The notes beneath the pieces were generated by a model, which saw only the letters and a list, made by a program, of their open reading frames with translations, made no database searches and was not told the origin of the DNA. From the NCBI GenBank assembly GCA_007693385.1, contig REDR01000123.1, forward strand, positions 124,001-188,000: a DNA stretch of 64,000 nucleotides. The letters are read 5' to 3'. The translations under genes and the position numbers were made by a program. Origin of the DNA: Anaerolineaceae bacterium (lineage in GTDB: Bacteria; Chloroflexota; Anaerolineae; Aggregatilineales; Phototrophicaceae). This document shows, in pieces, positions 1 through 59,652 of this stretch; within the stretch, counting starts at the first letter, position 1; every line of letters starts with the position of its first letter.

Positions 1-352
1 GGCTGATGGTCACGCGGTCAATCAACGCGACGCCGTTCTCGGTTGGCTCGAAGATGTGTTCGTGTCGCCAGTAGGCTAACGGCCCCTTGACCATCAGATC
101 AGCAAAGGAATGTTCCGTCGGCCCTTCTTCGTGGCGGGCAATCCAGCGTATCGGGATGAAAGCAAACCATAACGTGAACTCAATTTCGCCTTCGTTCAAC
201 GATGTGCGATCATCGCGGTGTAACTGCATGAAGATGGGTGGCGGGGACAGCTTGCCCAATGCACGCGGGTCTTCATGAAAGTCGATCATCTTCTCAAGTG
301 ATGTATTCATCACGGTACGTTTCTGGTAGGTGTGGGTTTTTGGTTTGGTCAT
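1..352 (-). CDS. SRPBCC/polyketide-cyclase-like protein, 3' part outside window
   Basis: Partial gene read from an ATG at 352 and still open at base 1 (about 117 codons visible). A GGGAG ribosome site lies about 12 bases upstream. The visible protein starts MTKPKTHTYQKR and contains a stretch reading GPLAYWRHEHIFEP followed by NGVALIDRV, the pattern of START-like SRPBCC proteins of the COG4276 type, in which a beta-sheet wraps a long helix to form a ligand cavity. Members are cytoplasmic and mostly of unknown ligand. It diverges from the purine operon across a 244-base gap. Function cannot be narrowed from the visible part; the C-terminal helix that would confirm the fold is outside the window. 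Confidence 0.7.
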   Translation of the reverse strand, partial: MTKPKTHTYQKRTVMNTSLEKMIDFHEDPRALGKLSPPPIFMQLHRDDRTSLNEGEIEFTLWFAFIPIRWIARHEEGPTEHSFADLMVKGPLAYWRHEHIFEPTENGVALIDRVTIS

Positions 353-542
353 CTTCGTCAGCTCCCATTATCAAATGGCCTTATCTTGTCATGCAGACCT
401 GAGTGCATCATTAAGTTGTGCATAACAAAGCATTGCACAAGCGCGGCGTAACGCTTATCATTGTGCTTTAATCGCCACATGCTCAGATCATGTCTTTGAT
501 GAAAAAGATAACGCTGACAACAATTGAACTGATGTAAAATCA

Positions 543-583
543 CGCGGCCTATTTCATCGCTTGGGATAGGCCGCGTTTATTTT
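543..583 (+). terminator. terminator-like hairpin just upstream of purL
   Basis: A perfect 10-bp stem (CGCGGCCTAT at 543-552 with ATAGGCCGCG at 566-575, 13-nt loop) is followed by TTTATTTT. It ends 13 bases before the purL start codon. The gene to the left points away, so no upstream plus-strand gene needs a terminator here. A conditional terminator in the purine leader is possible, but I see no recognisable purine, PRPP or ykkC riboswitch core. No convincing promoter was found in 353-542. Confidence 0.6.
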
Positions 584-596
584 GTGGAGTCGAGAT

Positions 597-3500
597 GTGA
601 CAACCTATCGCATAGAAGTCTGGTCGAAAACAGGACAACGGCACCGTCGGGATGATGTTGATTATCTGCCGGTGAAATTGTATTTTTTACGTGGGGCGCT
701 CACTGTGCGCGATGTTCAGCGCTTATGTGGCGCGATTCTAGCTGATCCGGTGGTAGAAGATTACAGCGTGGATATGGTCTACCGTCCGGATGATGTCGTT
801 CATACCGTCGATGTGACGTTCCTGCCCGGCGTCACCGATTCTGTCGCGGAGAATTTGCTGAAAGCCGCACAGGTAATGGGCATCCATACGCTGGATCAAG
901 CGGCGTCCGGTCAGCGCTTTTTACTGTACCGACAACGCGACGATCTCGATAAACTGGCGGTCAGCGTATTCTCGAACCCATTGATTCAACGCCATAGCAT
1001 TGACCAGCCGATTAACGCGCCATTCGTTGAAGCGGGGACGGCTACCGACCACGTAGACATCATCGCGCTGTGTGATGCCGACGACGAGCGCTTGCTGGCA
1101 ATTAGTCAGGAGCGCCGCCTATCGCTCGACCTGAACGAGATGCGGGCGATTCGTGATTATTTTCACGGCGAAGAGCGCGAACCAACGGACGCTGAATTAG
1201 AGATGTTGGCGCAAACATGGAGCGAGCATTGCGTACACAAGACATTCAAAGCCCGCATCACTTATGAGGGGCCAGCACACGGCGCGGAGGCTAACGCCAC
1301 AGCGCAAACCCAGCAAATTGACGGCCTGCTGAATACTTACATTCGTGCCGCTACCGAGCATGTCGCTAAAGATTGGGTGCGCTCCGCTTTTGTGGATAAT
1401 GCCGGCATCGTACGCTTCGATGATGGTTATGATCTAGCGTTCAAAGTAGAGACGCACAACCGCCCCTCAGCTTTAGAGCCGTTCGGCGGTGCAAATACCG
1501 GCGCGGGCGGCGTCATCCGTGACGTGCTGGGCGTCTCCGCGAAGCCGATAGCCAACACGGATATTCTGTTCTTCGGCCACCCGGATACCGAAAAAGTCCC
1601 TGACGGCGTGCTACATCCGCGCCGCGTGGCGGAGGGCGTCGTCGCTGGCATAGAAGATTACGGCAATAAGATGGGGATACCAACCGTCAACGGCGGCATC
1701 TGCTACGATGCTGGTTACGTGTCAAACCCGCTTGTTTTCTGCGGATGTCTGGGCATTCTGCCGCACGGGACGCACCGCACGCAGGCGCGAGACGGTGACT
1801 TGATCGTGGTGATCGGCGGGCGCACCGGACGCGACGGGCTACGCGGGGCAACATTCAGCAGTATGCAGATGGATTCGCAGACCGGCCAACTATCCGGCGG
1901 CGCGGTGCAGATCGGCCATCCGATACACGAGAAGCAGGTGCTAGAAGTCGTCTTGCGGGCACGGGACGCCGAACTTTACAACGCCATCACCGATTGCGGT
2001 GCGGGCGGGCTGTCGTCGGCGGTGGGCGAAATGGGCGAAAAACTGGGCGCGACGGTGCATCTGGAGCGCGTCCCGTTGAAGTATCCCGGCCTCAGTCCAT
2101 GGGAGATCTGGTTGAGTGAAGCACAAGAGCGTATGGTGTTCGCCGTCCCGCCGGAAAATTGGGAAGAAATGCAGGCTATCTGTGATGGGCAAGACGTGGA
2201 AGCCGTCGCCATCGGTACTTACGAAGCCACCGGACGCTTAACGCTGTATTATGGCGAGAAGCGCGTCGGCGATCTAGCGATGGCATTTCTGCATGATGGC
2301 ATCCCGCAGAAACAACTTGAGGCGGTATGGTCAGCGCCGGGCCATCATGTGCCGGATGAAGTCGATTGGCTAGCGCCATCTGAGGCGGTATTGCGCCTGC
2401 TGGCTTCACCCAACATCCGCAGTAAAGAAGATATCATCCGCCGCTACGATCACGAAGTACAGGGCGGCACGGCAGTCAAACCACTGGTCGGCGTCGCCAA
2501 TGACGGCCCGGCTGATGCCGCCGTGATTATGCCGGATCAAAGTCAACGTGGCGCGGCGCTCTCCGTCGGATACTGTCCGCAATATACCGCGCTTGACCCC
2601 TACGCGATGGCGTGGGCGGCGGTAGATGAAGCGTTCCGTAATGTCGTCGCTGTCGGCGCTGACCCCGATCATGTATCCATTCTGGATAACTTCAGTTGGG
2701 GTAATGCTGACCGTCCCGACAGGCTAGGGGCGTTGGTGCGCTGTAGTCAGGGCTGTTACGACGCCGCTATCGCCTACAACGCGCCGTTCGTCAGTGGTAA
2801 AGACAGCCTGAACAACGAATATCTCGGCGCGGACGGCCAGCGCCACGCCATCCCGGGCACGCTGGTCATTTCGGCGCTGGGGATCGTGCCGGATGTCGCC
2901 CGCACAGTGACGATGGACTTGAAGAAGGCTGGAAATCGTCTGTATCTGGTTGGTGAAACCCACGAAGAGATGGGCGGCAGTCATTACTACACGCTTCACC
3001 GTCTGCATGGTGGCGATGTACCGCGCCCGAATCCTGACGCGATACACACGCTACGCGCATTACACAGCGCGATACAATCCGGCCACGTCCGCGCCTGCCA
3101 CGACCTGAGCGAGGGCGGATTGGCGGTAGCGCTGGCGGAAATGTGCATAGCGGGGCGGATCGGTGCGAATATCGCGCTAGAAATCAGTGAGCCGGACGAT
3201 CTGCGCGTGGCGCTTTTCGCAGAATCGTTGACGCGGTTTTTGGTTGAAGTGCCGACTGACGCCGCCGATGAATTCGAAGCGTTATTCGCCGGTCATACTG
3301 TTCTGAAGATGATCGGGCACGTCAGTTCGACGGATGAACTGAACATCAATGACGGCGCGTTGAAGTTGAAAGTCAGCGAATTGGCGACAGCGTGGCGCGG
3401 TCACATTGATAGCGCGTCGGACGAAGAAATATCGCCAGAGAGCAGACAGAAACCTTCCCGAAGCGAAAAGTCGTCGCGCACGCCGACGAATCGCACCCAA

Positions 3501-22067: not shown

Positions 22068-22346
22068 TCATCCGCCGGTATGTCGCCGTTGCAACTCCGC
22101 CTCTATATCGGCTAACGATAAATCAAGCTCGGCCATCAAGACCAGCACATGATAGAACAGGTCGGATATTTCACCGATTTGTTCGTCGCGTCCCTGACCC
22201 AACGCGGCGACGATGACCTCCGTCGCCTCTTCGCCGACTTTCTGCGCGATCTTGTTCCTGCCCGCCTCAAACAAACTATTGGTGTAACTTTTGGCCTGCG
22301 GGTTGGCTTTGCGATCCCCTATGATTTTTTCTAGTTCTGTGATCAT
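22068..22346 (-). CDS. hisE: phosphoribosyl-ATP pyrophosphatase
   Basis: Removes pyrophosphate from PR-ATP, the second histidine step. The 92-residue all-alpha MazG-like protein has [14 protein letters not shown] and [13 protein letters not shown], the metal-binding acidic helices of HisE. It is a separate gene rather than fused to hisI, but its ATG (22346) overlaps the hisI stop as ATGA. Last gene of the his operon. Confidence 0.95.
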
Positions 22347-22702
22347 AACTGCTCCGGTTTGTCGTCAAATTCCGATAATGTGCGAAAAAAGCATGTCGTC
22401 TGGCCGGTATGACAGGCTGGCCCGGCAGGCTCCACGCGCAGTAATAATGTATCGGCGTCGCAATCTACGCGAATTTCTACCACGCGCTGAACATTGCCCG
22501 ATGTCGCGCCCTTATGCCATATCTCGCCCCTGCTACGTGACCAGAAAACGGCCTCGCCGGTCTTGAGTGTGCGATCTAGCGCGTCACGGTTCATATAGGC
22601 CATCATCAGAACCTGATGACTGTGCGCGTCCTGCACGATAGCCGGAAGCAGACCGTCCGCATCCCATTTGAGCGCCTCGCGTGCTGAATCACTCAGTCGC
22701 AT
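22343..22702 (-). CDS. hisI: phosphoribosyl-AMP cyclohydrolase
   Basis: Opens the adenine ring of PR-AMP. The 119-residue product has the family features [30 protein letters not shown], Asp-rich [11 protein letters not shown] (Mg site) and the zinc cysteines in CDAD, CHTG and TTCFF. The start overlaps the hisF end by 14 bases. Confidence 0.95.
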
Positions 22703-23468
22703 ATTCCCACCCCGTCAGGCGCACCGGCACACCGCGTTCATGTAGATATTGCTTCAATTCACCAACGCTAATCTCGTTGTAGTGGAAAAGTGACGCGGCC
22801 AGCGCCGCATCCGCCCGCATATCCTGTAGCGCATCGTAAAAATGCGCCGGTTCGCCCGCGCCGCCGGAAGCGATAACAGGAATAGATACCGCATCCACGA
22901 TAGCCTGTGTCATCTCCAGATCATAACCGACTCTCGTGCCGTCTCGATCCATGCTGGTCAATAGGATTTCACCCGCGCCTCGCGCCTCAACTTCTTTCGC
23001 CCACTCAATAGCGGTGCGCTCGGTAGGGGTGCGTCCACCGTTGATATGCACCACCCATTGCCCGTCGATGCGCTTAGGGTCGATAGCGACGACAATACAT
23101 TGGCTACCGAACGCCCACGCGCCTTTGTCGATCAATTCGGGATTTTTGATGGCCGCGCTGTTGATGCTCACTTTGTCCGCACCAGCCCGTAATGTGGCGC
23201 GGATGTCGTCTATCGTGCGGATGCCGCCGCCGACACAGAACGGAATGAATACCGTCTCCGCGACTTCGCGCACCATGTCGAGCGTCGTCTGGCGATTCTC
23301 GTGGCTGGCGGTGATGTCCAGAAAGACCAGTTCATCCGCACCGGCGCGGTCATAGATGGCGGCCTGTTCTACCGGATCGCCCGCGTCGCGTAAATCCACG
23401 AAGTTCACGCCTTTGACGACGCGCCCGTTTTGCACGTCCAGACAGGGGATTATGCGTTTGGCTAACAT
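22689..23468 (-). CDS. hisF: imidazole glycerol phosphate synthase, cyclase subunit
   Basis: With HisH makes imidazole glycerol phosphate and AICAR. The 259-residue TIM barrel starts [19 protein letters not shown], with catalytic Asp11-equivalent in CLDV and Asp130-equivalent in [11 protein letters not shown] 23468 follows GGAG (9 bases) and lies one base after the hisA stop. AICAR released here feeds PurH, encoded at 60548-62089. Confidence 0.96.
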
Positions 23469-23469
23469 G

Positions 23470-24195
23470 CTAATTCGCTCCGTCACTCAATTTAATGGCT
23501 TCCCGCAGGTCAATCTTGCCGGTATATAGTGCCATGCCGATGATTATTCCGGCGATGTTGCCCGCCTGTTTCGCTTGTCGCACGTCGTCAAGATCGCGCA
23601 CGCCGCCAGAGGCGATGACGTGCAGGCCGGTCTGTGTGGCGATTTCCGCCGTGCCCGCAACATCAACGCCGCCTAATCCACCATCACGGGCGACATCGGT
23701 ATAAAGCGCGTGTTGAGCGCCATATTCAGCCACAACCTGACCGAACTCAGTCGGCGTCATATCGGTGGTCTGTTGCCAGCCGTGCGTGGTGATTTTGCCG
23801 CCCCGCGCATCAAGACCGATGCAGATGCGCTCCGCGCCGAACGCCTCAACCGCCTCTTTGATGATAGGTGGCTGTTGTGCGGCGATTGTGCCCAGTATGA
23901 CGCGGCTCGCCCCTGCTGAGAATGCCGCGCCGATTTGCGCCATATCGCGCAGGCCGCCGCCGAATTGCACCCGCACACCTAACGCGGCGATGCGCTTCAG
24001 CACATCGAGATTATCATTCTGCGCGTTGAACGCGCCATCCAGATTGACGACATGCAACCATTCCGCGCCTTGTTCGATCCAGTTCGTCGCCATCTGCACC
24101 GGATCATCGCTAAATGTAGTCTGCCGCGCCGGATCACCTTCCAGCAAGCGAACAACCTTCCCACTGCGTAGATCAATAGCCGGATAGACGATCAT
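23470..24195 (-). CDS. hisA: ProFAR isomerase
   Basis: Amadori isomerase of the histidine pathway, 241 residues, TIM barrel with [14 protein letters not shown] at the N-terminus (catalytic Asp8-equivalent) and YTDVARDG near residue 170 (second catalytic Asp), and the phosphate motifs FGGGLRD and [16 protein letters not shown] stands 8 bases before ATG 24195, which overlaps the hisH stop as ATGA. Confidence 0.96.
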
Positions 24196-24818
24196 GCGAC
24201 GACCTCCTGACCGATTTTGAGGAAATTGGCGAGCATCTTCAGGCCGACCTGTTGGCTCTTTTCTGGATGAAATTGCACGCCGAAAATATGGCCGCGTTCC
24301 ACACCGGCAGAAAACTGCATCCCGTAGTCGCTGTAAATCAACAGGTCGCTGTCATTGCGTGGCATACAGAAATAGCTATGCACGAAATAAGCATAACTGC
24401 CTTCTGCGATGCCGTCGAGTAGCGGCGACTGACGATTGAAGCGCAGTTGATTCCAGCCCATGTGGGGTACTTTCAAACTGTGATGCGCCGGAAAGCGCGT
24501 GACATATCCGGGCAGAATGCCCAGCCCTTCGTGATGTCCCATCTCGTCGCTATGCGCGAATAAGAATTGCATCCCCAGACAAATACCCAGATAGGGCACA
24601 CCGGCGCGGATTTTATCCTGAAGTGGCGTGATAAGCTTTTGCTTTTGCAACTGCGCCATGCCCGCGCCGAACGCGCCCACACCCGGCAGGATGATTTGTG
24701 TCGCATCTTTCAGATCATCCGGTGATGTGGCAAGGCGCATCTGTGTGACGCCGAGATGTTTCAGCGCGTGCAGGACACTGCGTAGATTACCCGCGCCGTA
24801 GTCAATAACCGCTAACAT
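24192..24818 (-). CDS. hisH: imidazole glycerol phosphate synthase, glutamine amidotransferase subunit
   Basis: Glutaminase partner of HisF. The 208-residue protein has IDYGAGNLRSV at the start, the nucleophile Cys in GICLGMQFLF and the His-Glu pair in FHPEKS. The start is set by TAGGAGGT before ATG 24818. A longer in-frame reading to 24887 passes through the attenuator hairpin and would encode a proline run; I treat that as non-coding leader. First structural gene of the his operon. Confidence 0.95.
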   Translation of the reverse strand: MLAVIDYGAGNLRSVLHALKHLGVTQMRLATSPDDLKDATQIILPGVGAFGAGMAQLQKQKLITPLQDKIRAGVPYLGICLGMQFLFAHSDEMGHHEGLGILPGYVTRFPAHHSLKVPHMGWNQLRFNRQSPLLDGIAEGSYAYFVHSYFCMPRNDSDLLIYSDYGMQFSAGVERGHIFGVQFHPEKSQQVGLKMLANFLKIGQEVVA

Positions 24819-24838: not shown

Positions 24839-24861
24839 AAAAAACCCGCATCGGTGGCGGG
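24839..24861 (-). terminator. his attenuator terminator
   Basis: On the minus strand CCCGC (24861-24857), a 7-nt loop and GCGGG (24849-24845) are followed by TTTTTT. It lies between the His leader peptide and hisH. Its left arm is part of CCCGCCACCG (24861-24852), which can instead pair with CGGTGATGGG (24912-24903) further upstream, an antiterminator candidate with one mismatch. Confidence 0.8.
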
Positions 24862-24927
24862 GGAGGGTGCGAACCATCATCTAGCAAAACGAAAACATCT
24901 TGCCCATCACCGGCAGGTTGGCGGATG

Positions 24928-24966
24928 TTATAGATGATGATGGTATGTGCTGGTTACATTTTGCAT
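24928..24966 (-). CDS. his operon leader peptide MQNVTSTYHHHL
   Basis: A 12-codon open frame from ATG 24966 to TAA 24928 encodes MQNVTSTYHHHL, with three consecutive CAT histidine codons followed by one leucine. It sits between a near-consensus promoter and an intrinsic terminator upstream of hisH, the arrangement of ribosome-stalling histidine attenuators. The His-codon run (CATCATCTA) can pair with TAGATGATG (24883-24875) just before the terminator. There is no clear ribosome site: the predicted transcription start falls within a few bases of the ATG, so translation may be leaderless. Too short to be judged by homology. Confidence 0.82.
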   Translation of the reverse strand: MQNVTSTYHHHL

Positions 24967-24973
24967 GGTGGGC

Positions 24974-25002
24974 AGTATAACGCGGTAGTTTGCGGTTGTC
25001 AA
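24974..25002 (-). promoter_or_regulatory. his operon promoter
   Basis: Minus strand: perfect TTGACA (25002-24997), 17-base spacer, TATACT (24979-24974). Expected start is near 24967, at or next to the leader ATG. Its -35 box shares bases with the divergent promoter at 24996-25023. Confidence 0.8.
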
Positions 25003-59383: not shown

Positions 59384-59418
59384 AAAAAATCCTCTCGCCC
59401 AATTCAAGGACGAGAGGA
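59384..59418 (-). terminator. T-box terminator hairpin
   Basis: Minus strand: TCCTCTCG (59418-59411), 13-nt loop, CGAGAGGA (59397-59390), then TTTTTTG. It overlaps the alternative antiterminator fold of the T-box. Confidence 0.9.
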
Positions 59419-59652
59419 CACTCTCTCGCGGTACCACCTTGATTCGGCCCATTGTATAGGCCGCACTCATTGGCGCTATGACGGGCGCTCCCGTCGCATC
59501 TTACAGGCCAGCATGTGGCGTTCGGATGCGCAACTCGTGGCGTGACTTTCGAGGAACGATCATAAGCAGGCTTCCAGCCAGTGGCCTGCACTCTCTGACT
59601 ATGAGCGCGTTCGTCTACTCTTCGCCAGTCAACGTTTTTGTGTATTCAACTG
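59384..59652 (-). promoter_or_regulatory. Val-specific T-box leader
   Basis: This fills the 334-base gap between udk and the methyltransferase. Stem I shows an AGTA-type turn (GAGTAGACG) and the distal motifs CAGAGAGTGCAGG and GCTGGAAGCCTGC. In the specifier loop GUC (59546-59544, followed by A) is a valine codon between the arms GAACG/CGTTC and TGGCG/CGCCA. The T-box sequence AAGGTGGTACCGCG spans 59440-59427, with UGGU able to pair with tRNA acceptor ends ACCA. Uncharged tRNA-Val should favour antitermination and expression of the methyltransferase and valS. Confidence 0.93.

Follow-up and report, generated by a model that had tools for sequence, protein, structure and literature searches.

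The DNA ahead of hisH in a Chloroflexota genome (Anaerolineaceae bacterium, GCA_007693385.1) raises the question of whether a short His-containing reading frame and a terminator form a histidine attenuator there, and of where translation of such a leader would begin. We addressed it in a window of 64,000 nucleotides, by which we mean the whole stretch of DNA that was analysed (contig REDR01000123.1, positions 124,001 to 188,000), from an assembly of 3.59 Mb in 137 contigs that is 97% complete. We consider it very probable that the locus is a ribosome-mediated transcription attenuator for hisHAFI whose leader starts at or near the 5' end of the transcript; within this reading, we infer the start site, the leaderless translation, the stalling and the response to histidine. 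Downstream of the putative attenuator, the minus strand carries the genes in the order hisH-hisA-hisF-hisI: hisH, the first gene of the operon (24192..24818; TIGR01855, 231.8 bits), with its ATG at 24818 and AGGAGG ahead of it, hisA (23470..24195; TIGR00007, 253.4 bits), hisF (22689..23477; TIGR00735, 382.4 bits) and hisI, for phosphoribosyl-AMP cyclohydrolase (22343..22702; NF000768, 168.2 bits). Upstream, a promoter scan places the -35 box TTGACA at 25002-24997 and the -10 box TATACT at 24979-24974 of the minus strand, separated by a 17-nt spacer. This promoter, with 11 of 12 consensus matches, is the best of three promoter-like sites in a 5 kb scan, in which the number of such sites is not above that in shuffled sequence, and the transcription start predicted from its spacing is 24967-24966.

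The leader reading frame, found in the frame listing at 24966-24928 of the minus strand, encodes the peptide MQNVTSTYHHHL in 12 codons and a stop (ATG CAA AAT GTA ACC AGC ACA TAC CAT CAT CAT CTA TAA). It is probably leaderless, with its ATG (24966-24964) 7 nt after the -10 box, and its stop codon lies at 24930-24928. Three consecutive His codons within this short frame upstream of the his genes, CATCATCAT (24942-24934, minus strand), constitute segment 1, the proposed sensing site. Between the leader and hisH, the terminator scan and the folds place an intrinsic terminator, CCCGC-CACCGAT-GCGGG (segments 3 and 4; 24861-24845, minus strand), with the T-run TTTTTTGT at 24844-24837; the 5 terminator-like sites of the 5 kb scan show no excess over the 4.9 expected. 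The near-perfect promoter, the 12-residue His-His-His frame and the terminator before hisH that a first-pass annotation had described are thus all present on the minus strand. The same annotation had proposed that the His codons pair with 24883-24875, and in the minimum-energy fold of the free RNA they do pair with a protector strand, GATGATGG, at about 24881-24874, while the terminator is formed (z = -2.3, with 1 of 200 shuffles as low); this exact protector element was not found in the aligned relatives. It had further paired 24912-24903 with the left arm of the terminator. This pairing, between CGGTGATGGG (24912-24903) and CCCGCCACCG (24861-24852) with one mismatch, is borne out, and the antiterminator is longer than noted. 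Its strand, segment 2 (AACCTGCCGGTGATGGG, 24919-24903, minus strand, with CGGTGATGGG as its core), is supported by ribosome-edge folds and by covariation in one group of relatives, here called sub-type A. The additional bases AACCTGC (24919-24913) pair with the right arm and the first T's of the terminator (GCGGGTT), so that the predicted antiterminator joins AACCTGC-CGGTG with CACCG-AT-GCGGGTT and occupies the terminator loop and right arm. A local hairpin, GCAAGATG-TTTT-CGTTTTGC (24903-24884, minus strand), is predicted by the folds between segments 2 and 3, and its sequence is not conserved.

These elements suggest the following course of events. RNA polymerase would start at the leader ATG, give or take about one nucleotide, and the 5' AUG of the leader RNA would be loaded directly by a 70S ribosome. 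With enough charged tRNA-His, the ribosome would reach the stop codon, where its front edge would cover the start of segment 2, or, alternatively, it would be released and the His codons would pair with the protector strand; either way the terminator would form and transcription would end before hisH. With uncharged tRNA-His, the ribosome would wait on the His codons and leave segment 2 free to pair with the terminator loop and right arm, and transcription would continue into the his genes. In folds of the window sequence, a ribosome edge at 24938 or upstream gives a terminator probability of 0.94-0.98, an edge at 24934-24918 gives 0.00-0.02 for the terminator and 0.85-0.87 for the antiterminator, and an edge from 24914 on returns the terminator to 0.87-0.98. 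A His codon in the ribosomal A site would place the edge near 24928-24922, which is the antiterminator state. At the border between the last two states, the terminator probability is 0.10 for an edge at 24916 and 0.87 at 24914. Because the window's leader stops 14 nt upstream of segment 2, a ribosome at its stop codon would cover segment 2 only marginally, whereas in most relatives the frame crosses segment 2. In the fold models, the position of the stop codon at this border is a weak point of the mechanism for the window genome, where the terminator may form again only once the ribosome has left and the His codons have paired. All folds are equilibrium models that leave aside kinetics and coupling.

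We compared the region ahead of hisH across 88 genomes of the window's family, its own among them, and 44 from other families in the order; genomes within one genus are not independent. Within 250 nt upstream of hisH, 65 of the 88 family members carry a run of three or more His codons, compared with about 0.6 expected from shuffles, and none of the 44 genomes of the other families does, where hisH is usually internal to its operon. An acceptable His-containing leader with a terminator is present in 78 of the 88 family genomes, and a terminator in nearly all relatives; a few members (e.g. L004, L114, L124, L127) are without such a leader. The promoter is nearly invariant: about 80 family genomes carry TTGACA and TATACT, exactly or nearly so, the -35 hexamer recurring unchanged in nearly all family members and the -10 hexamer in most. 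Among relatives the His codons are kept in frame while the remaining peptide varies, and at the sequence level the leader is variable except for the His codons and segment 2. The leader frame ends in ...PVLA* or ...PVLV* in sub-type A, which comprises most genera, and in ...ARAMRGA* in sub-type B, which is one large genus; such ends, seen in most relatives, come from the frame reading across the antiterminator strand. Through this comparison, a His attenuator at this locus is well supported and no longer only plausible. Among the records compared, the hisH upstream region of L031 (JAHHHY010000001.1), which is named Pleurocapsa minor GSE-CHR-MK-17-07R, has the same features as that of G015, a member of the Chloroflexota family, and the cyanobacterial name looks like that of a mislabelled MAG.

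The first-pass annotation had suggested a comparison of relatives for conserved His codons and covarying stems, together with fold prediction, and both came out in favour of the attenuator, with the His runs just described, covariation in sub-type A and three states that follow the ribosome edge. The complementary strands are CCGGTGTTGG with CCCGCACCG in sub-type A and CAGAGCGA with TCGCTCTG in sub-type B, which is rewritten relative to A with complementarity kept. Segment 2 pairs with the segment 3 of its own genome at a mean of -13.0 kcal/mol, compared with -9.5 for shuffles and -10.9 for the segment 3 of other genomes. In sub-type A, none of 1000 column shuffles matched the pairing of the real alignment, while sub-type B shows weak covariation, with 13 of 1000 shuffles reaching its pairing for 8 pairs and 122 of 1000 for 10 pairs. 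The window was aligned with sub-type A, and in the folds its antiterminator and terminator exclude each other. When the ribosome was masked in the folds of 78 leaders, the mean terminator probability was 0.48 with the ribosome at the first His codon versus 0.95 at the stop codon, and the effect had the expected direction in 73 of the 78. Shuffling the spacers removed the switch behaviour of the family, reducing the difference in terminator probability to 0.05 (maximum 0.13 of 20 sets) from 0.48 in the real sequences, and the number of full switchers to 6 (maximum 11) from 41 of the 78 leaders. In silico, the fold thus depends on ribosome position as predicted, marginally so at the window's own stop codon. 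A covariance model, R1, was built from 35 sub-type A sequences; in the window genome only the known site scores well, and the next match (E = 0.006) resembles an ordinary terminator. Ten R1 matches outside the family within the class (E <= 0.001) were rejected, as they have no His run and resemble ordinary terminators.

We next consider the start of the leader, on which the most serious competing explanation bears, namely that the attenuator is real while its leader is not leaderless, transcription starting further upstream and leaving a 5' UTR that is short or devoid of a Shine-Dalgarno sequence. The window's leader ATG, 7 nt behind the -10 box, coincides with the transcription start expected from that box; no other in-frame start codon follows the promoter, and a Shine-Dalgarno sequence would not fit in between. 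We scored the start spacing in 80 family leaders with strong promoters and observed that, of 68 in-frame codons lying 6-8 nt after the -10 box, 13 are ATG, compared with 1/64 expected, with 9 genera of the family represented (p = 5e-11 at 1/64, a value that ignores relatedness among genomes that are not independent). A second peak of in-frame ATGs lies 27-32 nt after the -10 box (35 of 132 codons), and many of the family's leaders begin 18-35 nt downstream of this box, frequently preceded by a Shine-Dalgarno-like motif, which speaks for the competing explanation, as do the spacings of 9-14 nt that occur in other families and the lack of a general leaderless peak in the window genome, of which about 300 kb were scanned twice. 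Against it, the short spacing dominates elsewhere in the order: of 28 leaders sampled outside the family, 16 have their ATG at 6-8 nt and 23 within 6-10 nt, and the distance is 7 nt in most members of two other families (f2 and f4). Furthermore, the pattern TTGACA, TANNNT, 6-8 nt, ATG occurs 13 times in the window genome versus 0 times in a reversed control. Overall, we regard a leader with a 5' UTR as unlikely in the window, and the suggestion of the first-pass annotation that the leader is leaderless gains support from the ATG excess and from the dominance of this spacing in the other families of the order. Predictions of leaderless genes exist for 4 of 12 Chloroflexi genomes, covering about 5% of genes (PMC3160421). 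On a HisH tree whose resolution is too low for independent changes to be counted, parsimony requires at least 3 gains or losses of the leaderless form, of which the starred branches force only 1; most simply, leaderless leaders would be the older state, and some members of the window's family would have acquired a 5' UTR and a Shine-Dalgarno sequence.

A leaderless attenuator that is read by the ribosome has also to be weighed against control of the terminator and its folds by a protein or small molecule, with the leader left untranslated and the His run a by-product. Leader translation is only predicted, and T-boxes control other genes in the same genome, as at 59403-59641 of the window (minus strand), where a T-box leader (Rfam RF00230, 116 bits) precedes a methyltransferase-like gene and valS; the window genome thus appears to combine T-box control of some genes with a leader peptide at the his operon. 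However, we found no credible match to Rfam riboswitch, T-box or leader families at the attenuator site, the T-box covariance model included, and the Rfam His leader gave none at its gathering threshold nor at E values up to 10. The conservation of the His codons in frame, with an otherwise varying peptide, also argues against such control, and so does the position of similar leaders in other lineages. Outside the family, hisH is mostly operon-internal, often after a sequence read as hisB, and a similar His leader stands before hisD in families f2, f4 and f8 of the order and before hisG or hisD elsewhere in the class, so that a His leader precedes whichever gene opens the his operon, be it hisH, hisD or hisG. 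We therefore consider control without translation improbable. A restriction of the element to the family was likewise rejected, because elsewhere hisH is usually internal and a similar leader precedes hisD or hisG. Upstream of hisG in several families of the class, the His leaders L387, L397, L399, L405 and L409 are followed by a different recurrent terminator, GACTAGTT...AACTAGTC.

Another possibility, which would add to ribosome-mediated attenuation, is that the terminated leader RNA or the peptide also acts in trans, as in Sinorhizobium meliloti trpL. Termination would leave an RNA of about 125 nt with the ATG at its start, similar to rnTrpL (PMC7298713), but the variability of the leader outside the His codons and segment 2 makes a trans function a poor prospect. 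Finally, although the promoter-like and terminator-like sites in 5 kb are not above shuffles by number, a constitutive promoter and an ordinary terminator around a chance His-rich frame, without regulation, can practically be dismissed given the His runs (65 of 88 versus 0.6 expected), the loss of the switch upon shuffling and the covariation of sub-type A.

We also observed candidate leaders before genes other than his. In the same class, a Thr/Met-rich frame, MKSVHFATTMTMNTSGPRREAFVHGMK, begins 10 nt after a TAGAAT -10 box (L328; G212:C7, leader before 33-1475, minus strand) and is followed by a terminator and then an aspartate kinase, which makes it a candidate Thr/Met attenuator. In the window genome, a consensus promoter is followed 7 nt later by the ATG of a 28-aa frame ending in ...SLRSCTACQHRG (L349; G000:C105:12079-12117, minus strand), which has two Cys in its last part and is followed by a possible terminator and a cysM-like cysteine synthase gene, making it a candidate Cys attenuator. 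Also in this genome, the frame MPCVIAAVMQG (L341; G000:C71:8413-8452, plus strand) has a consensus -35 box and an ATG shortly after the -10 box, and a terminator-like hairpin follows it upstream of an RpoD-type sigma factor gene, while the 11-codon, leaderless-looking MLPAWKALKEK (L337; G000:C10:139716-139755, plus strand) ends just before a gyrA-like gene. Several other matches to the pattern in the phylum (e.g. L319, L321, L330, L331, L333) were discarded as ordinary gene starts or chance. It is conceivable, though we put it forward tentatively and would not count on it, that leaderless leader peptides are a general means of amino acid sensing in one Chloroflexota class, with 70S loading on the 5' AUG of attenuator RNAs ahead of hisG, hisD or hisH (His), aspartate kinase (Thr/Met), cysteine synthase (Cys) and perhaps rpoD and gyrA, and that within one family the attenuator has switched between leaderless and Shine-Dalgarno-led initiation.

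We then compared the proposed attenuator with known systems. It shares with the his attenuator of Salmonella and E. coli (HisL) a His leader peptide, an intrinsic terminator, a competing antiterminator and his genes downstream. The enterobacterial his attenuator uses a multi-segment pairing scheme, whereas a single antiterminator strand serves here; of the competing folds of enterobacterial type that the first-pass annotation had proposed, the principle stands, while the pairing scheme is simpler and the frame of most relatives crosses the antiterminator segment. Unlike HisL, the leader of the window has no match to the Rfam His leader and is probably leaderless. Its run has 3 His codons, with mostly 3-5 in relatives, compared with 7 in the E. 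coli his leader (PMC3896937). Candidate His attenuators in Firmicutes are described for the Bacillus cereus group, Peptostreptococcaceae and Erysipelotrichales (PMC9413887), and a His leader for hisS paralogs in bacilli (PMC2965389); these resemble the present case in having a His leader, a terminator and an antiterminator found by comparative genomics, and differ in phylum, with a leaderless start unmentioned in the passages concerned. The trp attenuator RNA of S. meliloti (trpL/rnTrpL) likewise begins with the ATG of its leader ORF (PMC7298713), but it carries Trp codons, belongs to the Alphaproteobacteria and has a known start site, which is predicted here. Mycobacterial polycysteine short ORFs (Canestrari et al. 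2020, as summarised in PMC9031893) are, according to that summary, also leaderless and sense an amino acid by ribosome speed, in their case cysteine in Actinobacteria with an effect on downstream translation, while the output predicted here is an intrinsic terminator. A T-box leader, too, senses tRNA charging for amino acid genes, but none matches at the attenuator site.

Leader-peptide systems had, to the knowledge of the authors of a 2010 survey, previously been shown only in Proteobacteria and Actinobacteria (PMC2965389); the Firmicutes case was that survey's own, and further Firmicutes were added in 2022 (PMC9413887). We found no report of leader-peptide attenuation in Chloroflexota in the open literature, which omits most papers of subscription journals, in agreement with the earlier remark that such peptides are little described there. 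The mechanism is thus classical, and, because no Chloroflexota report was found, its occurrence in this phylum and the conserved leaderless start appear to be new; it stands ahead of his operons with different first genes. A conserved His attenuator in a Chloroflexota class widens the known range of this principle and suggests that its origin or spread was not a single event. Where the leader begins is the question more amenable to test, and such short genes are likely missed by annotation pipelines. Leaderless and Shine-Dalgarno-led versions of the attenuator coexist in one family, so that nature itself provides the material to ask whether ribosome and RNA polymerase are coupled differently when loading is leaderless.
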